A stretch of DNA of 64,000 nt. Origin: Apostichopus japonicus. Taxonomy: Eukaryota; Echinodermata; Holothuroidea; Aspidochirotida; Stichopodidae. Shown here piece after piece: positions 1 through 17,180 of the stretch. The translations under genes and the position numbers were made by a program. The notes beneath the pieces were generated by a model that saw nothing but the letters and a program-made list of their open reading frames with translations, was not told the DNA's origin and did no database searches. The DNA lies in NCBI RefSeq assembly GCF_037975245.1, contig NC_092577.1:26967398-27031397 (forward strand), given 5' to 3'. How positions within the stretch are numbered: position 1 is the stretch's first letter; each line of letters starts with the position of its first letter.

Positions 1-791
1 TTAATCAAGTTACAGTACTGTATCAGTATGGGCGACATGTGAAATTATCATCACTTCTGCTCAGTTTTGCTTACAAGTGTAAATTTGTTTCACGTTATTG
101 TAAATCTTGCGTCTGCAGACATTTTTCAATACTTTTTACAACCAAGCTAATCAAATGCCCTTTTATCTTAGATTCGAGCATACCAGTATATTGTGCAATT
201 TATGACAACTTACAATTTAATCAATGCAATATGCCATTTTACAACTGAATTGTCGTCTGACAAACAGTTTGAATAAATCCAGTGAAGCCAACAGAATCTT
301 CTCCCTTGTCTTTTGGAAATCATGAAAGGGAAAAAATTATTACTGTACAGAAACAAATTGACCACTCACAATGTTGATGTTGTAAATAGACAGATTGCAG
401 TAAGAACCAAAGCAAGTGGGATATCATGACTCAAACACTTGTATAGTTTTGCTTAAATAATTAACTCTTCCATGTGGATAACTTAACCAACACAGAGTAG
501 CATCTAAAGCAACAACAAATAGTACAGCACCATGACAAACTGTGGAAACAAGGTAGCAGTATTGTTAGTTTAACAACACAGTTACCCATACAAAGATAAA
601 TACATAAACACAGGGAATCCCACAGTTCAGTATTTATTTAAATCCTTTCAAATAAGCAGCACTTGATGCGTTAATAATACATACAAAAATGCCCTTAGTT
701 AAAAAATAATGATAATGATGATCATGATGATAATGATGATAATAATGATGATAATAATGAACGATAATGATATTCAGCATTGAGGAAAATA
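1..791. other. Left flank, no gene recognised
   Basis: This AT-rich stretch lies outside the large inverted-repeat element that begins at 792. A GATGAT/AATGATGAT-type microsatellite runs at about 705-767. No open reading frame with convincing splice sites or domain content was seen; the 69-codon frame at 39-248 has no features suggesting a protein. It may be intron or 3' flank of a gene outside the window. Confidence 0.4.
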
Positions 792-822
792 CAGTACTGA
801 TTTCGCTTAACTCCCGTTGAAA
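792..822 (+). repeat. Left terminal inverted repeat (31 bp) of the giant element
   Basis: It is identical over 31 bases to the reverse complement of 14394-14424, starts CAGTACTG and is preceded by TA. After position 822 strict identity stops, but an AT-rich region (about 823-980) follows with repeated ATCGAATTT/ATCGATTTT and CAACG words, similar in style to 14240-14393 at the other end. Confidence 0.85.
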
Positions 823-1713
823 TTCGTTAAAAAAAAAATAACCGAATTTCTTCGTTTTTTATCGAAATTCCCCGATTTTTATCGATTTTTATCGAATTTT
901 AACGATTGCATTTCTCAGTCATTTCCTTCGTGGAATTTTCAACGATGCGTTGAAATTCTTTTTTAAACGAAATAGAAGGTCAATATGTGGTTACGCGAAG
1001 CGTCGGAAAACGCGTAACTTCGTTCATTAGTATCGATTAGACTTTGGAACAGTCGTTTGCAAGTAAGAATATTCACTGAGCCATTCTCAACCTTGCGTGA
1101 GAACACACACTCAAAGAAACATGTAAGTTAAACTGACGGGGGACGTTTTCTAACTGTGAACCCCAAACACAGCGACATAAGTCTTAACTTCGCCAGGCCT
1201 CCGAAAAGGTTGCAGTACAAGCTATGTACCACGAGGCACCCTTCCAGATAAGTTGGAGTGCTGTTTAACCATTTAAATAACAATGAATGGACATATAAAC
1301 TTCGTTTACTTGCAGATTACGCAAAATAGTTATTTTTTAGAGATGTATATTTGGTTTTTTAGTAGAGATGAAGTATGAAACTTTGTTTCTGAGCGAAAAC
1401 ATGTTACTTGAAGCAAAATAAAGATGCCCCGCCCATTCTGCGAGGACGCTTCCATTTTTCAAAAAGGCGTTTTCTCTTTTTATTTTCTCTATTTTGTTTA
1501 ATATAGATTTGGCATGAGACATGTTACTCAGGTTAACTTTGATGGAATAATTTTATACCAGAAGTGGAAAAACTTTACAGTTATTACTTTCGTTTTGGAT
1601 CATTTCCGAACAAGATAACACACACACAAAAACGACCTTACTGAATGAAAATAAACTGAAAACCATATCGCAAAAACACAAAATCGCTTATAACTCGAAA
1701 ACGGAATGAGATA

Positions 1714-1845
1714 TCGACTTTTGTCGGCTGTATAGGGATTTCAAATACGTAATTTTCTTGCGCTCTTTCCGCCTACGTTATTTCTGAGTTTCTCCGACGT
1801 AAGCTGCAGAACATAATTTCATAATACCAGTTCCGCGAAATTGAT
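1714..1845 (+). repeat. Internal direct repeat, copy 1 (about 130 bp)
   Basis: This segment resembles 12661-12796 in the same orientation. Shared blocks include TCGACTTTTGTCGGC at the start, GACGTAAGCTGCAG in the middle and TACCAGTTCCGCGAAATT at the end, with several substitutions between. The two copies lie about 11 kb apart, one towards each end of the giant element. They may be an older dispersed repeat or part of the element's own structure. Confidence 0.6.
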
Positions 1846-3689
1846 TTATGCATTTAGATCTTTTATCCAGGTGCTGCATTTTGTTGCAAGTGTTTTAGTA
1901 CTTCATCTTTTTTGCCATTCTGTATCAACTCGAAGGTTTTTTTCTTATTTCTGGTTTCTCAAATTTTTGTACAGTTTTCTGTTCATATGTGATGAACTTT
2001 TGTTGTTTCTTTACACCGTTTTGTAGCATTGAAAAGACAATAAACTTAAACAGTATCAATTCCCTGGTTTGGACTATCGAGAAACATTCTAAATGGGCAA
2101 TATTGGGGCGTTGAACTGAGTAAAACATTTGCTGTGCCCTCCCCCTTGTAATGAGGTCTGTAAAACAGATAGGGTTGTGAATGTCCATTTAACCAAAAAT
2201 ATTGATGGACGCAAACCCGCGCAAGACGGTGGCGTCCGTCTTACAGTGTAACAGACATGTAGCCCCTCCAAAACGTTTGCCGCGGCCGCTTCAAACACCA
2301 CAGTCCGCCACTGGGCGCTAATCAAACAATAGAAAAATACTGGGACTGAAAATTTCGGGGCTTTTAATCCAGAAGGTATAGTAGTCCTAAAGCGTATTTG
2401 TTTTTTCTCTTTTGGTAACCTTTTCAAGAATTGGGAATGAGACCCATTTTCTTTTGCTAATCCCTTGCCCTGTCAAACAGTTAGAACTTGTTGATTCATT
2501 TTTTAGTTGATGTTAAAAAGATGTTACGAATTAACATAAAAGTGGGCAACACGGGAATGGGTCCACATACTGACACGTCTTTCTGGATAAAAAGACATGT
2601 AGTTTGGTGTCGTGGTGCTTGTGTATATCACTTTGTCACGTTCGCTCGTGGTCTTTGAATGACCTTCTCGAAAAAAAAAATCACATAAAACAAAATTATC
2701 AAATTGTGGAATAAGCGAAAAAATGTCAACAAATAATGAATAGTCTAAAAACAGAGAGAAAGAAAAAACACAATAACAATGATACATTTTATTTTCGTCC
2801 AAAATCGAACCTACGAAAAGAATAAAGTATGATCAAGAACTACAACTTCAGTAAGAATAAATGAACAAAAACTACAATTGGTTAACTAGAATGGACGCAC
2901 TTAATGTGGTTACTTTCCATCTCAAATGTGCTTCCAAACAACTCACTGACCGTTCTGAGATATGACGTTTACAAGTTATGGAGTTACACATACAAACTGG
3001 ACGATAAACACAGACAGCCACTTGTGCCGGACAGGCCGAGTTTTGTTAATTTGTTATCTTCTGTTTGACCTAGCTAATAAATTACCAGGATAATGCCTAG
3101 GTATACGTTAACAGCGGGAACTGAGTCTAGAGGCATGAATATTCATTTCTGCCAGGTCTTTCGTCATATTGTATGGAATGCATGTATGTAATAAAGCAGC
3201 CTTCGTAACATGATTATTTGGTATTTGCAGCACGTATTTTTTTTAAGTACACGTTATACAACTATTATATCATTCCAGCATGTTTAACTTAGGTAAAAAA
3301 GGAAGTGTCGCAAACTAAAACCCGAATGCGAAAATACTTTACTTTTAAAGAAAGTCAGAATTATTTCGCAGGTACCGTATGAGCATGACTGACATACTAT
3401 AATGCGCTGTTTAAGATGTAGCAAAAGAAAATGTAAAGTTGCTGAGATGGTTATAGCCTGACAAAGCATCACATCAGTAGGTTGCAAAAGAAAACAGTAT
3501 GATAGATGACGTTTGCTGACTTTTGGGTTTATTGTAGATCAACATGAGACAAGTCAAAGCTTCAAATCCTTAGATATTCTCCTAAAGCGTTTTCAGCCTG
3601 TCATACCTGTGGTACATCCACATACCCAATAAGACATGTCCATTTTCTCTTCTTCATATACATAAACGCCATTATGACAGTAAAGGTTT

Positions 3690-3822
3690 CTCATCGAAAT
3701 CGCTTTTTGAAATTGAGAAATGATCACCCTAGCCATACAGAATGTCACAATCAAGCTCAAGTATGGCTAGGGTGACCATTTCTCAATTTAAAAAAAGAGG
3801 ACTATATATTTTTTCGATGAGG
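3690..3822. repeat. Long inverted repeat / hairpin
   Basis: Two arms of about 35 bases, around 3704-3738 and 3761-3795, read GAAATTGAGAAATGATCACC and the reverse complement with few mismatches, separated by about 23 bases. Weaker pairing extends outward: TCTCATCGAAA near 3689-3699 faces TTTCGATGAGGA near 3812-3823. A transcript would fold into a hairpin of about 130 nucleotides. It lies downstream of the BEN gene stop within the giant element. It could be a small foldback MITE or a hairpin RNA source; the sequence alone does not decide. Confidence 0.6.
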
Positions 3823-4019
3823 AAGTGGTCGATGGCGATAGATTCGACGCGGGACAAAAAAGGATATCAGATGTCAAAAAGGGGCAGGAACAAAAGCGAC
3901 GATATATACAGGGAATTGATTAAAATACTGTATGTTTCACCACTTTAAAGCAGCGGAACAGTAAGCTATACTGGAACTTATTATCATGAGGTTCAACGGG
4001 TTAAAATAGATTTTAAAGA

Positions 4020-7000
4020 TTACTCCAAAGATTTGGATATTTTTTTCTTTTTGTACGATCTCATAGATCTCATTAGAGAGTCTATGGCGGTAGTCGCTTG
4101 TTTCCATACGAACGTCCTACGCGGTATCGGAGTCTGTGTTATCTTGAACAGCTCGTTGTATAGACAGGTCATACCGGATGATGGTAGGCGCGGCTTGCCG
4201 TGAGTGCCATTGCAATTACAGGATACCATTTCCTCCACGGTGAATATGGCTTTCGCTAGTTTACGTGCAAGTGTCGTAGGTTTGTCTGCATATATCCACA
4301 GAGACCGCAGAAATTCTTGTGGTAGGTTGGATGCTGTGGAGTGTTCGGTTGGTGACTTCGTATGGTTCAGTGATGTTGGAGATATGTGAGATGATGTATG
4401 GGGAGGTGATGTTAGTAGGGAAGATGATGTTATGGGTGGGGGAAGTGATGTTAAGGGAGGTGATGTTGGTAGGGAAGTTGATGTTAGGGGTTGGGGAAGT
4501 GATGTTAGGGGAGGTGATGTTGGAAGAAATGATGATGTTAGGGGTAGGGCAGGTGATGTTAGAGGAGGTGATGTTAGGGGAGGTGGTGTTGGTAGGAATG
4601 ATGATGTTAGGGGTAGGGGAGGTGATGTTAGGGAAGGTGATGTTGGTAGGGATGATGATGTTAGGGGCAGGGGAGGTGATGTTAGGGGAGGTGATATTGA
4701 TAAGGAAGATAAAGTTAGTGATGTTAGGGTTGGAGATGGTGATATTGATATTGGAAATGATGATGTTAGTGGAAGTGATGACGTTAGAGGTTGGGGAGAG
4801 GATGTTAGAGGTTGGGGAGAGGATGTTAGAGGTTGGGGAGATGATGTTAGAGGTAGGGGAGATGATGTTTGTGTGGGGTGTGAGATGGAAGATGTAGATG
4901 GCTCAAAGTAATCAAGTTCTGAAGACGTGAAAAAACTTTCTTCATCATGGAGAATGTTCATGCTGTCTGCAAACACATCACTTGCTTGTTCCGACTTATT
5001 CATCATCGACATGATAGTGGACACCATGCTTTTAATTTCATTCTGTCCACGAATGAAGTTGGACTCCATCCTTTCCATCCTCTGTTCGACCAGTTCCAGC
5101 CTTTGCCAGAGGTTCTGCTTCCCAACTTCCTCTGTCCTACCGACATCCACCGCTTCTTCTTCATGCCGTGTACAATCCACTTCATTAGAAGCGCTGGCTA
5201 TGACACCAACACTTCCTTGATCCCCAACGGTCTTTTCTTTCAAGGTTTGCTTTGCCTTTTTTATAGCGGCGCTGGAAACAGATGGCAGTTCCACTGTCCA
5301 ATTACTGTTGCTGTCAGAGACAGCGGCAGACTCTCCTATGCACAGCACTTTCGCTCCCTAGTGAAAAAAAAATGCGTAAGCAATCTCTTAATATATAAGG
5401 TGGGCAACACTTTTTACAAACTACACTTAAAATAAGAAATCAAAACAAACTCAAGTAATTCTGGGAACAACTCAGACTTCAAATATCAACCGTGGTGGTA
5501 TATTTCGGCTATATAACACAGACACAATACCATGCACTAACATGGCTTCATGGCTCATTTATGAATATTCATAGTTGCTGTATAACAAAAGGACACAAAA
5601 TTAGAAAAGCATCATATCAGACGTTTCAACGCATAATTCAGCTTTAAGCGGAAGACCCCAACCTGCCTTTTTTGTTTGTTGCTGGAGTTAAACATATCAA
5701 AGTAACGATAGGTCTTCTCTAGGCTTTTCTAAGATACCCCCATCCCCTAATAAGCCAACTAACCTTCTTCCTTACGTCTACTGTTGACCTTTTTTTCTGA
5801 CGAGGCTTCTTTGGGATGGTCAAATGTGCGACCTGAAACAATAATACAGTATTTGCTATAGAGGAGATTACATGCTTTAGACATGCTTATAGGACAACTC
5901 AAATTACTCAAGGTTCAAATTTAACATATATGTGACAGAATTAAAAACTACTCTTATTGATCCAACTCATATCTTGTTTGGTTGTTGAGATCTAAAACGT
6001 TAAAATGTATTCATGATTTGTTGTGATGGCATAAAGGAACAACATGTAAAATGGAAGGGTGCACGAACCACTCATTCCCTCCCCGCACCCATATACCGAC
6101 CAGCAAATTCCATTAGGTGCATAAAAACACAAAATGCAATGATGTGCTGCTATAGTTTCCGTGTATGGCAAGCCATATGGGACAAACACTGCATAATATA
6201 TCCGCGTATAAATTGGAATTTATACGCGTATTAATTGTAATATATACGCGTATATATTATGAGCCAATCATATGGCTTAAATATATCCGCGTATTAATTC
6301 GAATATATCCACGTATTAATTCGAATATATACACGTATTAATTCGAATATATACACGTATTAATTCGAATATATACACGTATTAAATAAAATACATATGG
6401 AGATTAAATCCAATATATGCACGGATTAATTAGAATATACATGCGAAAAAACATTTCCGCTCTTGCTGTGTACATATACCAACGATAAATGTTTTGGCGG
6501 GCTCGCGAGATCGCTTCAAAAAGCGAAACTTGTACAACACATGTGTATTTGAATTAATACGCGTATATATTCGAATTAATACGCGGATATATTATGCGGT
6601 GTTTGTCCCACATGGCTTGCCATATCCGTGCGGCACTCCCATTGATCACAGTCTACCCACCGTCCCACCTCGATAAAGAAAATAGTGCATTTTGTCCTTC
6701 CCCCTTTATCTACCCTTCACAGTGGTTTAAAAGTAAACTATCAACATCTTTTGGAAAACACTTACGTCATTAACAATATTCAAATGGTTATCTTCTACAA
6801 ATGATGGTGGTTGGGAAGGGGACGTTGGAGAGACATCGGTATCGGAGGAGTCTATGTAGTCAGTCAACAGTTCATAACGTATAGTCTGGTTGCAAGCTGT
6901 CACTATCTGTGAAACAAATGTTGCGGATCAATGTCAGCACCATACTGCAATATAGAGTAGTTTACCTACAGTTTTTGATTTATTCATTGATAGTACACCA

Positions 7001-8690
7001 ATTGGTACTGGAGCGAGCGCAGACAAGATCCCTCCAAAACGGAATAAGGCCATGTTAATAAAACCAGAAATACAACATTCAATGTGGTTCATTCGCCACT
7101 GTTTGGGATTTTTTTTTCTCATTGAGAAGTACAGTACGTTTGTGATAACCTCTCATCACTGTTTACGTACTCTGCATGCCAGTCTACACAGTGTGTCACA
7201 TTATCTATTCAAACCAACCTACTTAAGCTGAGCTTATGACCAGGTTCTAACCACAAATTTGATTGGACCCCTTCCTCCAAGAATATTTAATAAAGTAAAT
7301 CATTTGGGGTGGCAAACCATGCATATCCATATTGAACTTACAAATGCAGATTCTCACCAACCGTATGTGATATTGTAAGGTTCCCACCCATCATGACTAT
7401 GCATACATCATAATGGCACTACAAAAACATTATAGATCATTCCTGGATCATGTGCTATCATTGTAGTAAGTATCAACTTAAACTGATCTACGGTTCGTGA
7501 GATTTCGTTTTACAAGTTAAGGCGTCACATACAGTACTTACATACCCATATACACACAGTACATACTTTATATACATACATTCCATGCATACACATATAC
7601 GCGCCTACTCGAATGGGCCATGATGCCTCAGGCATAACTACAAAAAAGGGCATGGGCTTACATGGCCTCTGTATGGGTCGTTGATATGAACGGTTAGCCG
7701 ACCTCCCGTTGACCCATCGTTCCTTTTCACGGTTACGCTATCCGTACGCTGCAATTTGCTGGGATGCTTAGATACAGGCCAATCTTGTTTGCGTGGTTGT
7801 ACTCTTAAAGGCCTCTTAAGCAGGTGCTCCCTAACCTCATTGCGAGGCAACCAGGAAGTGGTAGAATAGCCTATCCATCTGTCACACGAATAAAATTAAA
7901 AAGTTTAGCCTAATTGTGAAAATATTAATTATTGAAATGTGTTCTTACATAAACTATAGTACGCAATCGAAAACAATATGAAAAGTTAATGCTAACTGGT
8001 AATTATATCGTCCAAATGATTTGTACACTAACATGACCTTACGGAGAAGTTTTCCTAAGTGTCACTTACAGGAATTATCGACCAATGAAAATAACACGTA
8101 CTTTGTATCAACTGTTAATTTACGTACTGCTTTGAGGAAAACAGTGAAGAGTTTTGATTTTAAAATTCAGGAGGGATTTTATATCACTCCCATTGCGTTG
8201 AAATTTTCAGTCGGCAAAAATTCAGAACACATCGCTGCTTTTGCAAATTAGGTAAATAACTTTCAATGATCGATCAGTGGGAGGAAAGGGGTGGGGGGGG
8301 GGGGGAGACCCAGAAAGCACTGGCAAGAAAAACATCCGTTGCCACACCACTATCAGAGAGTAAATATGTATGTTAACTGTTTCAAATATATTGTTTTTCT
8401 AGGATAAGCTATTAAAGGTACAGTATCAACGTAATATATATTAAATACTGTACTACGCAAAATCTTATTTACAATTGCACATTTTGATTTACAATGTGCG
8501 GGTCTACAGCACGTTATGATAACCGATAACCCTGATGTCTATGCCTGGTTATAGAAAGTAGAATGAGAGAAGAGCGAAACACAAGAAAAAAAATATTTAC
8601 TTACTTGACGTGCACTTCTCCATTTCTTTCTTCCAGTTTTTTACAAAACATCCAAATTCCGCTTGCTGTATCTAAACCCTGCAACTTCAT
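4020..8690 (-). CDS. BEN-domain protein with Tudor/chromo-barrel-like N-terminus, five exons, inside the giant element
   Basis: Exons (minus): 8605-8690, 7662-7878, 6766-6906, 5776-5832, 4020-5357. All junctions are GT-AG and phases agree (exon 1 ends in phase 2, the others in phase 0), giving 612 residues from ATG at 8690. The N-terminus (about 1-55, with VHVKWIGY and TTSWLP) resembles a Tudor-knot or chromo-barrel fold. A basic patch, PKKPRQKKR, lies near 155-163 and a coiled coil at about 249-290. Ser/Thr/Pro/Leu repeats (LTSSPPLPTS type) fill about 325-515. The C-terminal 515-600 (LARKLAKAIFTVEE, then CNGTHGKPRL) matches a BEN domain, a DNA- or protein-binding module of chromatin factors. 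The in-frame TAG just before 5357 confirms the acceptor. Intron 3 (5833-6765) holds a MITE. Its role in transposition or chromatin targeting is inference. It could instead be a host gene trapped inside the element. Confidence 0.75.
4390..4895 (-). repeat. Coding minisatellite in the BEN gene (Ser/Thr/Pro/Leu-rich)
   Basis: This is a degenerate array of units built on GGTGATGTTAGGGG (plus-strand reading), about 15-30 bases long and all in multiples of three, so the minus-strand BEN frame stays open. It encodes repeated LTSSPPLPTSP-like segments. The low-complexity linker joins the coiled coil to the BEN domain. Plus-strand open frames over the same bases are by-products of the repeat. Confidence 0.75.
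6166..6622. mobile_element. MITE with about 44-bp TIRs and TA duplication, in a BEN-gene intron
   Basis: The ends are inverted repeats starting TGGCAAGCCATATGGGACAA on the left, with the right end complementary over about 44 bases with two mismatches. TA flanks both ends (6164-6165 and 6623-6624). The interior contains iterated 22-bp units of the ATATACACGTATTAATTCG type and ATATATACGCG words, themselves partly self-complementary. There is no coding capacity. The TA target site and TIR point to a non-autonomous Tc1/mariner-type element nested in the giant element. Confidence 0.75.
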
Positions 8691-9677
8691 GTTGGTTCAA
8701 TTTTAACTTGCCGCGAAAGGAAACCTGCGTATCGCTGAAGTTTCTGGTTATGATTATCTTGTTGCAGTTAATTTACAACTTTGTGTTTCACTGATGCGCT
8801 TATACAGGACAGTCCTCGGACATTAAAATACTTTGCTCTAATATCGATTGCTGCAGGCTTATCAATATCAGACTTATCAGTAATATGGGTGGAAATATAC
8901 AAACGAAGACTTCATGAACAGAACAATTTACAACCTTGCAAGACCATGGCGAGTAATGCCGTTTCATTTTAAATTGCGCCCTTTTATCCCACTACCATCT
9001 CATATTCACCATCTGGGGGGAGGATTTTTTTTTTGGTTCTTTTGGCAGATCGCGGGAAAGTCGATCTTGACGACAGAATTACACTCCTTTGATGGCCTTG
9101 TTGAATAAAACAATCTTCATCTCCAAACCCAAATGAACCTGCGTGGGTGGTGTCTTGAAGTTTCTGGGAGTTGTAACCTATTAATTGCCTTATAATCGCT
9201 AATACAGTCTGCAGCTATAATTGATAACGTACGTTATCAATTTATATCCGTAATGAATCAACGTAATCACGATTACTACGCACCCTAAAGTTGCCATATT
9301 TTGGTCACATCGAATCCTTCGATGGTGCTATATGAAAACATCATAAGTCGTAAGGCTGTCAGCAAATAGCGCATGTATTATTGCTGGAGGTTATAAAAGT
9401 ACGCTCTTGATTACTCGTAATAAGACTTGAACCAGGAACATCGTAATTCGTAAGACAGCATGTGTTGTTGCTAGACGCTAAAAAAAAATACGCTCTTCGT
9501 TAAGAATCGCCCGAGGGCGGACAGAGGTCGTCATTCTCTACATCAATTCATTAAAAAGGGGCGGGTTTTAAATGATTAATATCGTCTGAATACAGGGAGG
9601 TCTGATGTTTCGATGAGAAAATTGGAAGTAATGCATTCAGCGAGTTACAATCACCAACTGAACTTCGTTCGCAGAAA
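8691..9677. promoter_or_regulatory. Divergent intergenic region between the BEN gene and the transposase gene
   Basis: This is 987 bases between two start codons facing away from each other, so both promoters should lie here. No clear TATA box was identified. A GGGGCGGG GC-box-like word lies at about 9558-9565 upstream of the transposase. Two imperfect copies of a 70-base segment (about 9340-9420 and 9440-9510, sharing CGTAAG and TACGCTCTT) precede it. The region could serve as a shared bidirectional promoter; that is inference. Confidence 0.35.
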
Positions 9678-10697
9678 ATGGCACGACTGTCGCTTACACT
9701 CCGGAGGGAAATTGTTACCTTATCTGGGCTCGGAAATAGTATTTCCAAGATAAGAGCAATTTTAGCTGAAAAGGGATATTTTGTCGACCCGAAAACAGTA
9801 AGAAATTTACTAGGAAAGTGGGAGACACATGGCACGATTAGGGATCTGCCTCGCCGCCGGCCACTTCCTAAGTTTGGTCCATTGCACTTGAGTGCAATGG
9901 ATAAACTCATTGATGCGAATCGTGAGATAACGTCCATTGGCATCCAGAGGAAGCTACGTGAGGAGAACTTAACGATCAGTACAAGTTCCATTCGGAGGGT
10001 TCGACAGAAAAAGCTAAACTGGGTGTGCACTAAGCCAAGATACGCTCAACTGATTCGCCGCGTTAACCAGACCGCTCGTCTAGAATACGCAATTCGTTGC
10101 ATTGAAAATAAGGAAACCTTCGCCAACGCAATCTTCACCGATGAATGTTCTGTGGAATTAGACCACACGGCCAAACTACAGTTCAGGAGGAAGGGGGAAG
10201 CTCCGGAACTGATCGGAAGACCAAAGCACCCAACCAAAGTTCACGTTTGGGCAGGTATATCTGTGAGAGGTGCCACAGATATCGTAATTTTTGACGGGAT
10301 CATGCGCAGCGAATTTTACTGCCAAGAACTTCTCCAGAATGGACTGCTGCCGTTCGTGAGAAAAGCCTTTCCGGATGGTGGTTATCGCTTCATTCAGGAT
10401 AACGACCCAAAACATACGAGTGGCTTCACAAAATCTTTCATGGTCGCAAACCAGATACCATGGTGGCCCACGCCAGCCGAGAGTCCTGACTTGAACCCCA
10501 TCGAGATGCTCTGGCATGAGCTGAAACACTGCCTGCGGTCGGAATTGAAGCCATACACACTAGACGATCTAAAGCGCATGATCACCTTTTTTTGGAAAGA
10601 TAGGGTTACCCCAGAAAAGTGTCAAAAGTACATCGGACACATCCAGAAGGTTCTGCCAGTTGTGCTGGAAGTCGAAGGGAAGGCCACGGGACATTAA
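9678..10697 (+). CDS. Tc1-like transposase, intact DD34E
   Basis: An uninterrupted 339-codon frame starts at ATG 9678. Residues 1-125 form the bipartite helix-turn-helix (paired-like) DNA-binding region, with an arginine-rich hinge RRRPLP near 59-64. The RNase H-like catalytic domain follows: Asp155 in TDECSVEL, Asp241 in QDNDPKHTS and Glu276 in PDLNPIE, with 34 residues between the last two, the Tc1 DD34E signature. The length is that of a full Tc1 transposase. The frame has no stop or frameshift and all catalytic residues are present, so the enzyme may be active. Local GC is higher than in the surroundings. No separate TIR pair closely flanking this gene was found, so it may serve the giant element's ends. 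It is followed by a histone-type 3' stem-loop. Confidence 0.93.
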   Translation: MARLSLTLRREIVTLSGLGNSISKIRAILAEKGYFVDPKTVRNLLGKWETHGTIRDLPRRRPLPKFGPLHLSAMDKLIDANREITSIGIQRKLREENLTISTSSIRRVRQKKLNWVCTKPRYAQLIRRVNQTARLEYAIRCIENKETFANAIFTDECSVELDHTAKLQFRRKGEAPELIGRPKHPTKVHVWAGISVRGATDIVIFDGIMRSEFYCQELLQNGLLPFVRKAFPDGGYRFIQDNDPKHTSGFTKSFMVANQIPWWPTPAESPDLNPIEMLWHELKHCLRSELKPYTLDDLKRMITFFWKDRVTPEKCQKYIGHIQKVLPVVLEVEGKATGH

Positions 10698-10730
10698 ACC
10701 ACCAGGAGCTCAACCCTCTATATATCAAAC

Positions 10731-10746
10731 GGCCCTTTTCAGGGCC
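10731..10746 (+). promoter_or_regulatory. Replication-dependent histone-type 3' stem-loop after the transposase gene
   Basis: GGCCCTTTTCAGGGCC is a six-base-pair stem with a TTTC four-base loop, matching the metazoan histone mRNA 3' consensus, including upstream AAAC and downstream ATCA flanks. It begins 33 bases after the transposase stop, as in real histone genes. A purine-rich word, CTGAAAGAGC at 10758-10767, lies 11 bases beyond the stem, where the U7 snRNP-binding histone downstream element is expected. In histone genes this signal is bound by SLBP and gives cleaved, non-polyadenylated S-phase mRNAs. No histone coding remnant is visible beside it. A conventional AATAAA also occurs near 11030, so polyadenylation cannot be excluded. 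Confidence 0.8.
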
Positions 10747-10769
10747 ATCAAATACTACTGAAAGAGCGA

Positions 10770-12660
10770 CTTTTTCTCCTCTCTAGAACATGCTTTGTGT
10801 CTTGTCGTTGTTGTAATGTTTTCTGTTTTGTGTCATGTAAAATCATAAGGGAAACGAATGATGGTTGTGATGGTGGAAGGGGCGGGGTTGTCAACTCGGA
10901 GAGGGACAGCTTTTGATCATTAAATTTGACGTACAGTATATTGCGAGAAAAAGTTTTATCCCCGTTTCCAAAGTGTTGAAAAAAAAAAAACAGTCACTCA
11001 TGTGTTGAAAATTTATTATTTACATAAATAAATACAACTTTTGTTGGTAGGCTACGTGTATATAAATAAACACAAGCTCTATTGTACTGTAGGTCTTCAC
11101 AAGTAATGTAAAGTATTATTATAGTATCAGAGAAAAAGAAACTACCGGTACATCAGCAAAACATGTACAAATCATGCTGAGATATGCTGAGAAATTAATC
11201 CTCTGAAATATATTTTTTGGGGGTGGGGGGGGGGGGCGAGTCCCCACCCGGGCATCGTTGTCATGACGCCACTTTCCATTGGTGCCATGGAAGTAAAACT
11301 TTATTTAACAAAAATTTAGTTCTTGTTGCAAACTATTAATTCGTACTAACAAAATAGGTTTTTACTACAAAGTAGACATTTTTACTTGCATAGGATTAAT
11401 ATGTTTCTATAATATCCTGCCCCATTTGTATATCAAAAAACTTAGGTGCTGTCCACACTGTTATGACTAAAATTTACATTTAGCTGACAGAATACTGTAA
11501 ATCTCACATCTGAACGTCTTTTGTTTTATGCGGGATGCCCCCCCCCCCCCCCCCGCCAAAAAAAAAAAAAATACACAAAACTAAACGCAGAGGCGGGTCA
11601 TAGAACAACCAACGAATGCGCCAAGTAAAACACGTATATGCATGGGCAGGTTATAGACAACGGGAAGCTGCTATATTCCCTGGACGGAACACAATGTCTT
11701 AACAAAACACCTGGTTACTTTATTTAAAAATTAAATTCCAAATATGCCACTATCAACGAAATTATTTGTCTTTGTATGTACAGTATATTCGAAGTTGCAA
11801 GGCCTAACCTTTAGTCCCGGTGGGGGCAAGGGGTGTTATAGTTACACTTTCCTAAGAAAATATTCTTAACAACCTCGATTTGATAGCTGACACGTTTGCT
11901 GTGTGCACATGCTGATTACGCGCTCATCATCAATTCATCATGATCACAGGCACTACTCTGTCGGCCATGATCCAATCATGACCGTTCACATGGAACAACG
12001 CGCCCTAGGTAGGGTCATGGTCGGATGACGGAGTCGTCATCAAGCGTGCACTGCAATGTTTGTCTAGAAAAGTGAAATGATTCTGTTCAAATGCAGTTAT
12101 CGCCCAATTGTTGATGACGCGCTCGCGATCGGTTGAATTGCCGTCCCTTGAAAGGATTATCTGGTGGCCATCTGTATGTACTTTTAAAAAAAAAGTATGT
12201 AATTTTTAGACTGTGCTGACAAACTTTGAAGGCAAAAAATTCCCGAATTATTGAGAAACGATTTATTAAATTTCTCGCTGAGAACTCTTTTCATATGATC
12301 AAGTGAAGTTAATCATGAGATGATCTCCGTTCATATGGAAAATAGGAAGACGGGGTATTCAAGAGCGTGTAACCCATGGGAACACATGAGTTATTTCACT
12401 GTTATAATCGACCCCAAGTGACATGATGTGTTTACTTTTTGGCAAACACCTCTTGTGAACTATTTTATATCAGGAAGGGGGTGGGGGACTATTAACAGCG
12501 TCCCGAAACTTTTGTGAAACTCAATAGATATGGAACTACGTCGAGTTTGTTATTCACTTCCATGTTAGATCCTTAACACATTCATTGTATTGTTTACGGA
12601 TTAGCGCTATCTGACAGTAGCGCTGAACTTCACACTTCTTGCAAGAACACAAGTACAGTT
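10770..12660. other. Element interior without recognised gene
   Basis: Non-coding sequence with G/C homopolymer runs near 11222-11237 and 11530-11554 and AATAAA words near 11030 and 11065. A fragment at about 12153-12300 begins AAAGGATTATCTGGTGGCC and resembles the left end of the element at 24276. A clustered set of palindromic TGATCA/CATGATC words lies at 11930-12020. No splice-supported coding sequence was found. Confidence 0.4.
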
Positions 12661-12796
12661 GTCGACTTTTGTCGGCAGGACGTGGATTTTCTAAAACTAA
12701 TTTTAATGCGCTCTATCCACCTGTGTCATTAATGAGCTTCTCTGACGTAAGCTGCAGTACGTAATTTCGCTATACCAGTTCCGCGAAATTTATTTA
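12661..12796 (+). repeat. Internal direct repeat, copy 2
   Basis: This is the partner of 1714-1845 in the same orientation, with the same three conserved blocks and scattered differences. It lies about 1.6 kb from the right end of the giant element, whereas copy 1 is about 0.9 kb from the left end. Confidence 0.6.
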
Positions 12797-13897
12797 CACA
12801 GTAAACATCGTTCATTATGTTTTCTTTCACAACGAATATTCAAAGTTGTGCTCCACACGCTTCACAGATATTTTATGTTGTTCATTTTCAATTCTACTTT
12901 AAAATTACATTTTCGAACGATGCATTGCACGCCTTATCAAACATTCCCGATTAGTAAAACTAAGGAAGGATATTCAAATATATATATGATTTTATGAGGT
13001 GTTCCACTTGAAAAACGATGATAAAACCGAAAAACAAAACATTTACTTCTCATGTGACGCATACCGGGAGATTCATAAAAACACCCCCTTCTCATTAAAT
13101 TAAATTTACATGCCGTCAGGCCATTTGAAAGCCCTCCCCAGTAATGTTTGATCAGCTCTTCCCAATATTCAATACTCAAATAAGCAATGAAAATATATTC
13201 ATTTTCCCCAGATTCTCCCCAACGGTGGGCCCCAAGTCACTGCTTTATTTTCTTAGTAACAATTGTTTGCAACTCTCTTGCTGGCCAGGTGTTTTCAAGT
13301 TTTATTAATAGCACGACTTCTGATTGGTTCATTCAAGATAAACTTTTTATCCCTGCTGGATTGTTCTACTTACATATATATGAATGAATATTTGGTTTTC
13401 AATTAACTTAGTTACAGGTTACATCCATTCCATTACGAACAGTAGGGGTAAAAAATGTTTGCTTCTAGAGGCAGCCAGACAAAGGTTCTGCAGTGCTAAA
13501 CCCCCACGAAGATAAATACTATGCTAAATAACAGATGGTAGGCGTGAATTTGACAAAACCAGGTTTCTGATTGGACTAAGCCTCTCAAAAAAGTTTTGTC
13601 GCTGGGGATATCCAGGGTAGGGAATTCACATGTAAGCAGCATACTGTAGGTGACCCAGAACCAGGCTGCGACCTTAATTACCAGGGCAGTCCATCTGCAT
13701 TCGCGGGCAACTTTGGGTTAGGGGGAAAATAACAGGATGTTTTTTATTTTGCGTGCATTGAAGCCGGTGGGAGATTTTTTGGACGGAATGCGCTCTCAGA
13801 AAAGTTTGAAAGTGAGCGCGGTTCGTAGTAAACGGCACTGTAGTTCGTCAGTAACACAGGAATTTATTGGAAATAAAAATCTCTTTGATATCCAGCT

Positions 13898-13958
13898 ATG
13901 ACTGCTTCATTGTGGATATTTTGTTTTTTATTTCGTTTTTCTGACGCTGCGTTCCTTG
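13898..13958 (+). CDS. Possible signal-peptide first exon near the right end of the giant element
   Basis: ATG at 13898 begins a 20-codon hydrophobic frame (MTASLWIFCFLFRF then SDAAFLG) that ends exactly at a consensus donor G|GTGAGT. It has the look of a secretory signal peptide exon. No matching downstream exon was found before the right TIR or beyond it, and such short frames arise by chance, so this is weakly supported. Confidence 0.18.
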
Positions 13959-14393
13959 GTGAGTTAACTTAAACTTATCTTAGTTAAATACTAGCCTATA
14001 ACTTAAGAGTCATAGAATGTGCTTGTTACGATCGATCAAGACCTATTTTTTATTATCCTAGCCAAATCATTTTTCAAACACCTAGTACAGAACTTACTCT
14101 ATCTACAGTACAATCAAACTTTTGTAACGTTTGTAATATTCCTCGGCAACTTCTGGTAGACTCTGAAAACGGCTGTAGTTACACTAAGGATTCAACGCAA
14201 GTCACAACCTTGATATGTCTAGAATTGCCTTTGCGGTTTTTTGATCGCGATAACTTTCGTGGAAATTTCGTTGAAACTTCGTTGACAACCGTGCCCGCAG
14301 TAGTCTAAATCTTGTCAACGAAATTATTCGTTTTTAACCGATTTTCAACTATTTTTATCGATTTTCAACGTTTGTTATCGATCGTTGATTTTT

Positions 14394-14424
14394 TTTCAAC
14401 GGGAGTTAAGCGAAATCAGTACTG
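14394..14424 (-). repeat. Right terminal inverted repeat (31 bp) of the giant element
   Basis: It is the exact reverse complement of 792-822 and ends CAGTACTG followed by TA. The preceding 150 bases contain several ATCGATTTTCAACG-like copies, probably subterminal motifs. The perfect match of both ends, in contrast to diverged older repeats nearby, suggests a fairly recent insertion. Confidence 0.85.
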
Positions 14425-14426
14425 TA

Positions 14427-15090
14427 TATGGTTTCATTCATGAGTTATTTAGTTGGTTTCTGAAAAATGAAGTCAACCCGATGTTGGGAAAGGCTGAAAA
14501 AGAAAATCCTAAACATGGGACTTTTCGCAAAAGGCGGTATTATGATCACGATCGATGATCAGGTGATTCACAGTGACCTGTGACTTCATTATTATGATGA
14601 AAAAGTGAGCTCGGTGTAGACTGTACTTCAGCTGTGTGCACAGACTGTGTTAGATTCTGATAGGTTGGAGGCCATGTTTTTTTTGGCGCAGTAGGCCAAC
14701 TTCAATGTATCAACAAATTTTGAGGCCAACTTTGAAACTCATGCGATACAGTCAACATTAACACTGCAACAAATATGGGTCTAAGCCAGACATGGGACAA
14801 TAAGCTCTCATCGATTTTTAAACATAACGCAAGTTATATAACATTGAAAGGGAAGAGAGGAGATTTGAATCACTGTGTGAGACATTCAACAGTCTAATTT
14901 TAATTAGGTGTTATTGATCCTGCTTTTTCTTGTTGATTAGTGAAGCCAATTGCCCCAATATAAATTATGGAAAATTTAAATTTACAGAATTACGGGGAAA
15001 AATGTGTATATCAGTGGTGAAGTTAATTATCTATTTAAGTCCTGAACATTACACCAGAAAATTAAACTAAAATAACATTTATGCTGACAT
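14427..15090. other. Right flank of the giant element, nothing recognised
   Basis: AT-rich sequence without coding signals. It separates the right end of the element from the 57-bp minisatellite. Confidence 0.4.
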
Positions 15091-15108
15091 GAAATGTACG
15101 CACAGCTC

Positions 15109-16712
15109 CATACTGTACAGTACACTACAGAAAATATCACCACAGTGATGTCATTCACTGATCTGAGTGCTGAACAGTACACTACAGAAAATATCATCAC
15201 AGTGATGTCATTCACTGATCTGAGTGCTGAACAGTACACTACAGAAAATATCATCACAGTGATGTCATTCACTGATCTGAGTGCTGATCAGTACACTACA
15301 GAAAATATCACCACAGTGATGTCATTCACTGATCTGAGTGCTGATCAGTACACTACAGAAAATATCATCATAGTGATGTCATTCACTGATCTGAGTGCTG
15401 AACAGTACACTACAGAAAATATCATCACAGTGATGTCATTCACTGATCTGAGTGCTGAACAGTGCACTACAGAAAATATCATTACAGTGATGTCATTCAC
15501 TGATCTGAGTGCTGAACAGTACACTACAGAAAATATCATTACAGTGATGTCATTCACTGATCTGAGTGCTGAACAGTACACTACAGAAAATATCATTACA
15601 GTGATGTCATTCACTGATCTGAGTGCTGAACAGTACACTACAGAAAATATCATTACAGTGATGTCATTCACTGATCTGAGTGCTGATCAGTACACTACAG
15701 AAAATATCATTACAGTGATGTCATTCACTGATCTGAGTGCTGAACAGTGCACTACAGAAAATATCATTACAGTGATGTCATTCACTGATCTGAGTGCTGA
15801 ACAGTACACTACAGAAAATATCACCACAGTGATGTCATTCACTGATCTGAGTGCTGAACAGTACACTACAGAAAATATCATCACAGTGATGTCATTCACT
15901 GATCTGAGTGCTGAACAGTGCACTACAGAAAATATCATTACAGTGATGTCATTCACTGATCTGAGTGCTGAACAGTGCACTACAGAAAATATCATTACAG
16001 TGATGTCATTCACTGATCTGAGTGCTGAACAGTACACTACAGAAAATATCATTACAGTGATGTCATTCACTGATCTGAGTGCTGATCAGTACACTACAGA
16101 AAATATCATTACAGTGATGTCATTCACTGATCTGAGTGCTGATCAGTACACTACAGAAAATATCATTACAGTGATGTCATTCACTGATCTGAGTGCTGAT
16201 CAGTACACTACAGAAAATATCATTACAGTGATGTCATTCACTGATCTGAGTGCTGATCAGTACACTACAGAAAATATCATTACAGTGATGTCATTCACTG
16301 ATCTGAGTGCTGATCAGTACACTACAGAAAATATCATTACAGTGATGTCATTCACTGATCTGAGTGCTGAACAGTACACTACAGAAAATATCATTACAGT
16401 GATGTCATTCACTGATCTGAGTGCTGAACAGTACACTACAGAAAATATCATTACAGTGATGTCATTCACTGATCTGAGTGCTGAACAGTGCACTACAGAA
16501 AATATCATTACAGTGATGTCATTCACTGATCTGAGTGCTGAACAGTACACTACAGAAAATATCATTACAGTGATGTCATTCACTGATCTGAGTGCTGAAC
16601 AGTACACTACAGATAATATCATCACAGTGATGTCATTCACTGATCTGAGTGCTGATCAGTACACTACAGAAAATATCATTACAGTGATGTCATTCACTGA
16701 CCTGAGTGCTGT
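15109..16712 (+). repeat. Minisatellite: 28 copies of an exact 57-bp unit, open as a 568-codon frame
   Basis: The phrase CAGTACACTACAG (or its CAGTGCACTACAG variant) recurs every 57 bases from 15118 to 16657 with no insertion or deletion. Because 57 is 3 x 19, a plus-strand frame (15094-16800) stays open and would encode 28 copies of MSFTDLSAEQYTTENIITV. Differences are point changes only: GAA/GAT, TAC/TGC and ATT/ATC/ACC in that frame. The minus strand is also largely open, which argues that openness comes from the repeat and not from selection. No domain, signal peptide or splice evidence supports a protein. Confidence 0.9.
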
Positions 16713-16796
16713 TACAAGGTCGTTGCAGTGTTTGCAAACTCCTAAATTTGTATCAATTACGGAGACGAAAAAACGATGTTTTAATGTTAAACTCAA

Positions 16797-17180
16797 ATGA
16801 CCTTTGCCTTCTACCAAATTCAATAGGGTTCCTCACCAAGCTGGATCTGCATAACAAGTATGATGTTCAACAAAGATGTACTTTTTTAGTTATCATGTTT
16901 ACAAGGTTTTCAGACAATGACCAAGATGTTAACTTTAAATGACCTCTGGCTTCGATCAATTTCAATAGGGTTCTTGGACTCACCAAGAAAGATCTACATA
17001 CCAAACTCAAATCATAACTATGATCAATGTACCTCTGAGTTACAGTTTAGAAGGTTTTCAGACTTGACCTCTGTTGACCCCAAATGACTATTGGCCTCAC
17101 ATAAATTAATGGGGGATGGATCCACATACCAAGCATTCAGTTAATCCACAATGAACTGTTTGAGTTACAGTCTATGCAAG
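16797..17180 (+). repeat. Dispersed repeat family with GACCTTTG / TTTACAAGG words, tandem units
   Basis: Two to three diverged units of about 150 bases share TGACCTNTG, CAATAGGGTTC, AGTTATCATGTTTACAAGG and TTTTCAGAC phrases. Similar text recurs at 18000-18390 and 38280-38690. It behaves as an old dispersed repeat family; there is no coding potential. Confidence 0.55.

Follow-up and report, generated by a model that had tools for sequence, protein, structure and literature searches.

A 64-kb stretch of the genome of the sea cucumber Apostichopus japonicus, hereafter the window (contig C17, positions 26967398-27031397, in a genome of 671.6 Mb and 35 contigs), contains a transposon of the Tc1/mariner type whose transposase gene is followed by a histone-type stem-loop and downstream element. 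In its DNA-level features, among them an uninterrupted frame, this gene matches a replication-dependent histone gene. In the histone pathway, the stem-loop is bound by stem-loop binding protein (SLBP) and the downstream element pairs with U7. Cleavage by CPSF73 approximately 5 nt past the stem yields an mRNA that has no poly(A) tail and persists only during DNA replication. Based upon the features described below, we propose, with a probability of roughly 0.8, that a Tc1/mariner lineage carries a complete host-type histone 3' end behind its transposase, and that this end is processed by SLBP and U7 and coupled to replication.

Structure of the transposase 3' end

The following features were located behind the transposase gene.

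10731..10746, + strand: histone-type stem-loop GGCCCTTTTCAGGGCC, 6-bp stem and 4-nt loop TTTC (from RF00032, covariation and a covariance model)
10747..10751, + strand: flank ATCAA, expected place of histone-type cleavage (from alignment with host histone genes)
10758..10767, + strand: histone downstream element CTGAAAGAGC, 11 bases past the stem
10787..10793, + strand: AACATGC box, common to host H2A and H1 genes and most signal-bearing transposase copies
11027..11070, + strand: pair of AATAAA poly(A) signals (at 11027 and at 11065) that could provide an alternative 3' end

The stem-loop lies 33 bases behind the transposase stop codon (TAA, 10695-10697). An earlier note, made from the letters of this DNA, had placed the stem-loop and downstream element at these coordinates and spacings (33 and 11 bases), which were exact. 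Its claim that the 3' end of a replication-dependent histone mRNA is reproduced here was borne out by a covariance search with the Rfam histone stem-loop model RF00032 (Histone3), which matched at 10726-10772 across 46 of 46 model positions with 35.6 bits (gathering score 34) and an E-value of 1.3e-6 for 64 kb and 4227 families. This was the sole Rfam match above gathering score in the window. As in histone 3' ends, the stem has a GG/CC base and a TTTN-type 4-nt loop, the flanks are A/C-rich with an ACCA-like 3' side (AAACGG...ATCA in the window, ATCA or ACCA in host histones), and a purine-rich element follows at 11 nt, within the usual range of approximately 10-15 nt past the stem. The gene so terminated encodes a DDE transposase, not a histone.

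The same parts were found in the host's own histone genes, represented by H2A genes L013 and L018 and H1 genes L015 and L072, all confirmed by Pfam; furthermore, 23 of 23 loci (L017-L039) of the cluster on contig C1 encode the same H2A stretch. The order in the host genes is AACGGCTCTTTTNAGGGCCAYCAAAT (ACAT in L072), then CCAGAAAGA (CCAGGAAAA in L013), then an AACATGC or ATACATGC box approximately 20 nt beyond the downstream element. Transposase ends follow the same order, and the host H2A and H1 genes share all three parts (stem-loop, downstream element and ACATGC box) with the transposase. The downstream element of transposase relatives and host histone genes is CCAGAAAGAG or a near variant, mostly CCAGAAAGA. 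At the flank position the host genes have ACCAA or ATCAA, and histone-type cleavage would be expected at the ATCAA of the window. No described function is known to us for the AACATGC/ATACATGC box, no search for one having been made.

A chance origin of the stem-loop was excluded because a 23-base stem-loop pattern (at most one mismatch) gave 839 matches in the genome versus 1 for the reversed control; the first of these matches, which are those listed, were all on C1 and mostly in its histone cluster. In IMG/VR, a related exact stem-loop pattern gave 0 matches.

Recurrence and conservation of the signal

A search with the transposase returned 46 matches at 25 places, 21 of which were read (the window and L040-L059). 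The signal, comprising stem-loop, downstream element and usually also the ACATGC box, was present at 14 of the 21 (window, L040, L041, L043, L044, L045, L047, L048, L049, L051, L053, L054, L057 and L059). The distance from stop to stem was 20, 21 or 33 nt in the 10 loci measured, and the signal-bearing subfamilies share 47-68% protein identity. A covariance model of all three parts drew on 11 ends: 7 from transposase genes, 3 from histone genes, and that of L016, where no clear gene is present. With it, 24 matches were obtained at 49.6-87.5 bits, spread over 22 of 29 sources, with the next best at 16.3 bits; 10 of the 29 scanned sources supplied model rows, so their own scores are not independent. 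Seven signal-bearing loci were not used for the model (L040, L044, L045, L051, L053, L057 and L059), among which L040 does not differ from the window, L051 is near L041, and L044 and L045 are near L043.

A genome search with RF00032, in which 75 of 107,999 first-look candidates were scored and which is not a census, pointed in the same direction. Apart from the window's own match and those behind L040, L043 and others, which are not among the matches listed, 3 of the 4 listed above cut-off sit behind copies of the window transposase, on C16 (L051, broken), C17 (L049, broken) and C1 (L041, open), with 38.7-40.5 bits. The fourth is an H2A gene at 34.1 bits, and the histone cluster reached 32.8 and 31.3 bits. 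Across 14 control genomes RF00032 gave one weak match and none above cut-off.

The earlier note had also held that no histone remnant is visible and that the signal looks acquired or evolved by the element. Both statements stood. The DNA separating transposase and stem-loop showed no histone coding sequence, and the signal is enclosed by the boundaries of the element at 790 and 14426, which is why it is assigned to the element. A chance stem-loop, or the remnant of a dead histone gene lying beside the transposase, is extremely improbable and is refuted by the copies, given this enclosure, the lack of visible histone coding sequence, the single match of the reversed pattern, and the recurrence of the signal at 14 of 21 loci, 20-33 nt behind the stop in the 10 measured; nothing was found in its favor.

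Between subfamilies the signal is far more alike than neutral sites. Window and L041 agree in 31 of 40 signal columns, against 25 of 79 fourfold sites, a near-random share (Fisher p 2e-6). For window and L043 the figures are 30 of 40 and 19 of 61 (Fisher p 2e-5). The subfamilies retain 75-80% identity in the signal at a fourfold-site divergence that looks saturated. The dN between window and L041 was 0.25; dS was not computable because synonymous sites are saturated. Stems are fully paired in all three open-framed signal-bearing copies compared (window, L041 and L043) and in L040. In a covariation alignment of 17 rows (13 transposase, 3 histone and L016), 93.1% of cells pair versus 17.6-59.8% in slid alignments, and 3 of 5 covariation measures lie above every one of the 500 shuffles. 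At the third stem pair, 11 rows have C-G and 6 have U-A; at the fourth, U-G, U-A and C-G all occur. These patterns suggest that the 3' signal is very probably under selection and working in 3' processing.

Several observations weigh against the proposed reading. The signal is absent from 7 of the 21 loci (L042, L046, L050, L052, L055, L056 and L058; the C-terminal gene end is unaligned in L055, L056 and L058, yet these loci were scanned whole), and as these include the open-framed L042, the transposase does not need the signal. The other two measures of covariation, which count doubly changed pairs (1) and further pair types (5), were no better than shuffles. All six U-A rows belong to one clade, to which the change on both sides of the stem is limited; this change is therefore probably one event. 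The check proposed in the earlier note, whether other copies keep the stem-loop with compensatory changes, was answered in favor of its reading by retention at 14 loci and one doubly changed pair, within the limits set by the signal-less third of loci and the confinement of the change to a single clade. Broken copies have fully paired stems in 6 of 10 cases, which does not differ significantly from the 3 of 3 open copies (Fisher p 0.50), so decay after loss of the frame is not supported. In a transposase tree omitting L057 and L059 (too short), signal-bearing copies form two separate groups, window/L041 and L043/L053 (L053 on a long branch), and the signal-less L042/L050, L046/L058 and L052 lie nearer the window/L041 group. 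Repeated recapture from histone genes could mimic conservation. A U7 small nuclear RNA search (RF00066) yielded no credible candidate: it gave 45 matches, all under cut-off, and the 10 that were read proved to be a repeat. Finally, the AATAAA signals at 11027 and 11065, close to the poly(A) site that the earlier note put near 11030, permit ordinary polyadenylation.

The signal may have come by one old gain with losses, by two gains, or by repeated recapture from histone genes; 3'-end comparison singled out no histone gene as the donor. Passive capture, in which a histone 3' end was picked up once or repeatedly with little effect on the element, would fit the abundance of host stem-loops (the 839 pattern matches), the retention of much of the signal by broken copies, and the finding that histone 3' ends are about as similar to transposase ends as transposase ends are to each other. 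It is nevertheless improbable in view of the identity retained at apparently saturated neutral divergence, the stem pair changed on both sides, and the placement 20-33 nt behind the stop in subfamilies with 47-68% protein identity.

The poly(A) signals raise the alternative of dual 3' ends, in which cycling cells would make an mRNA ending at the stem-loop and the downstream AATAAA sites would yield a polyadenylated form as well, as for H2A.X, whose dual processing is named in the title of PMC7807067. Besides the two signals in the window, AATAAA occurs within 700 nt behind seven other signal-bearing loci (L043, L044, L045, L047, L048, L051 and L054). Set against this, L049 and the open-framed L041 have no AATAAA over the same 700 nt (L041 has one ATTAAA), and the motif is common in A+T-rich DNA and is also found behind the signal-less L042 and L050. 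Dual ends are a serious prospect, with odds somewhat below even.

The transposon, its second gene and other carriers of the signal

The features of the element as a whole are listed below.

790..14426, strand not applicable: whole transposon, Tc1/mariner type, 13,637 bp including TA at both ends (from the match ends of many copies)
790..822, + strand: left terminal inverted repeat, TA followed by CAGTACTG...
14394..14426, - strand: right terminal inverted repeat
9678..10697, + strand: 339-aa DD34E transposase, uninterrupted single frame, D155, D241, E276
4023..8690, - strand: second gene, NCBI-predicted 616-aa protein (from five tblastn pieces)
8690-8604, 7880-7659, 6918-6760, 5832-5764 and 5357-4023, - strand: pieces of the second gene

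The terminal repeats are 33 bp, perfect, and start with TA-CAGT. The second full copy, on C1, is 99.93% identical across the 7,002 bp compared and has the same ends, 13,646 bp apart, within different flanking sequence, suggesting that the element moved recently; TA is present at both ends of both full copies. Domestication as a host gene was considered and set aside in view of the bounded element and its second copy. A genome search with the first 16 kb of the window scored 38 of 2086 first-look candidates, and its listing is without the window's own element and the C1 copy. Among the matches listed, numerous partial copies terminate at approximately 790 and 14426, at least 33 rows span the right-end part (from 12,662-13,051 to 14,341-14,434), and the left part (790-1850) directly adjoins the right part at no fewer than 6 places, representing derivatives of approximately 2.7 kb without the middle. 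Inverted repeats sought within 8000-13000 amounted to G/C runs and weak matches, since the element extends beyond that interval, to 790 and 14426. DNA relatives were not confirmed in IMG/VR, and GTDB gave one contig match at 35% identity.

The transposase matched PF13358 (DDE_3; E 7e-13) and the catalytic domain of Sleeping Beauty (5cr4; E 8e-22), and D155, D241 and E276 were invariant in 12 of 12 aligned proteins, giving the Tc1-type DD34E spacing. It is 98% identical to a transposase annotated in A. japonicus (P0001), from which it differs at 7 of 339 residues, all in the first 73 (window 9678-9900). More distant transposases, at 53-79% identity, were also matched, among others in Holothuria leucospilota.

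The second gene has introns and lacks an RF00032 match. Over a 444-aa exon it matches an NCBI "uncharacterized protein [Apostichopus japonicus]" with 100% identity, and its product has a weak C-terminal BEN match (PF10523, E 0.003, under the Pfam cut-off). A conserved N-terminal domain was also noted, with one weak Agenet match (L046, E 0.08); this N-terminal part adjoins signal-bearing and signal-less transposases alike. The second gene is divergent from the transposase in the window, L042 and L043, and in the signal-less L046 and L052 the two share a strand, with the conserved domain of the second gene downstream of the transposase. No match was obtained for three pieces of the second gene in PHROGs, for protein P0121 in PDB, or for L076 in a plasmid tblastn. 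Outside the transposon, a tandem repeat at 15088-16797 can be read as a 570-aa frame of 19-residue units, with similar DNA on C10 and C20.

Searching with the 3' end of the window also matched L073-L075 (C9:31087146, C2:7449075 and C21:11832890), which have the same signal at 69.6-69.8 bits. A repeated hypothetical protein (BSL78_00976 family, with a relative in Holothuria leucospilota) precedes the signal in L074 and L075, its stop lying 25 and 24 nt ahead, respectively; no frame of this family was seen at L073. As judged from these loci, a second repeat unrelated to the transposon carries the same histone-type 3' end. L079 is apparently another, truncated copy of this repeat. Directly downstream of the signal of L074 is a 300-aa open frame (L080) with the motifs DKG..., YVLPKIHK... 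and GRPIISG, which resemble those of Penelope-like reverse transcriptases; Pfam and PDB searches gave no match, and for that reason the label serves as a lead only. Two further stem-loops, L016 (C2:14175575) and L077 (C1:8143636), lie behind a stretch that by eye is common to both and has no clear reading frame, possibly a third repeat family. The odds are slightly better than even that more than one class of sea cucumber transposable element, i.e. the DD34E lineage and independently a repeat resembling a Penelope-type retroelement, took over histone mRNA 3' processing, with element mRNAs formed under SLBP control and lacking poly(A) tails, and tied mobilisation to S phase and to egg and embryo storage. 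If true, this would be the first class of non-histone metazoan mRNAs with a histone-type 3' end.

Proposed mechanism and comparison with known systems

The transposase mRNA is most likely a non-polyadenylated, replication-coupled message formed through SLBP and the U7 small nuclear ribonucleoprotein (snRNP). SLBP and U7 snRNP/CPSF73 would cleave the transposase pre-mRNA approximately 5 nt past the stem, and the resulting mRNA, without a poly(A) tail, would be translated and destroyed like histone mRNA. It would be restricted to S phase, possibly with additional presence in oocyte and cleaving-embryo stores of histone-type mRNA. Transposition would then take place in replicating cells, where cut-and-paste behind the fork could raise copy number, and in the germ line and early embryo. 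On these sequence features, S-phase coupling of the transposase by its 3' signal is probable, with less confidence than is given to the signal itself. The signal could instead serve to recruit SLBP so that the mRNA is exported, stored or translated in oocytes and early embryos, and not to set S-phase timing. This is rather unlikely; nothing specific speaks against it, and sequence signals do not separate storage from S-phase coupling.

Histone mRNAs are described, in the abstracts of PMC6303110 and PMC12775136, as the only metazoan mRNAs with this stem-loop in place of a poly(A) end. That rule would be broken by a transposon lineage carrying and keeping the full signal. Such a lineage would also show a concrete means by which a DNA transposon could match its activity to DNA replication, and its natural, divergent non-histone substrates would help to ask what each part of the signal contributes, the ACATGC box included. 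Because poly(A)-selected RNA-seq would miss such transcripts, other animals may have similar cases that go unnoticed. In a literature search that left most subscription journals outside its reach, no paper was found that pairs a histone stem-loop with a transposase or transposable element, or that treats stem-loop binding protein with non-histone mRNAs. The element therefore represents a known transposon superfamily and a known RNA signal in a combination for which no precedent was found.

The transposase 3' end resembles the metazoan replication-dependent histone 3' end in its stem, loop, flanks and purine-rich downstream element, in the short distance from the stop, in the single-frame gene and, within A. 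japonicus, in the ACATGC box; it differs in that the gene is a transposase within a mobile element and not a histone. With Tc1/mariner DD34E elements (Sleeping Beauty, and relatives annotated Tcb1/Tcb2) the transposon shares the DDE_3 domain, the D155/D241/E276 triad, TA ends, inverted repeats starting with CAGT, and shortened derivatives. Tc1 elements are usually compact, single-gene elements of 1-3 kb, whereas the element of the window spans 13,637 bp, has a multi-exon second gene encoded on the other strand, and ends its transposase gene in the manner of a histone.
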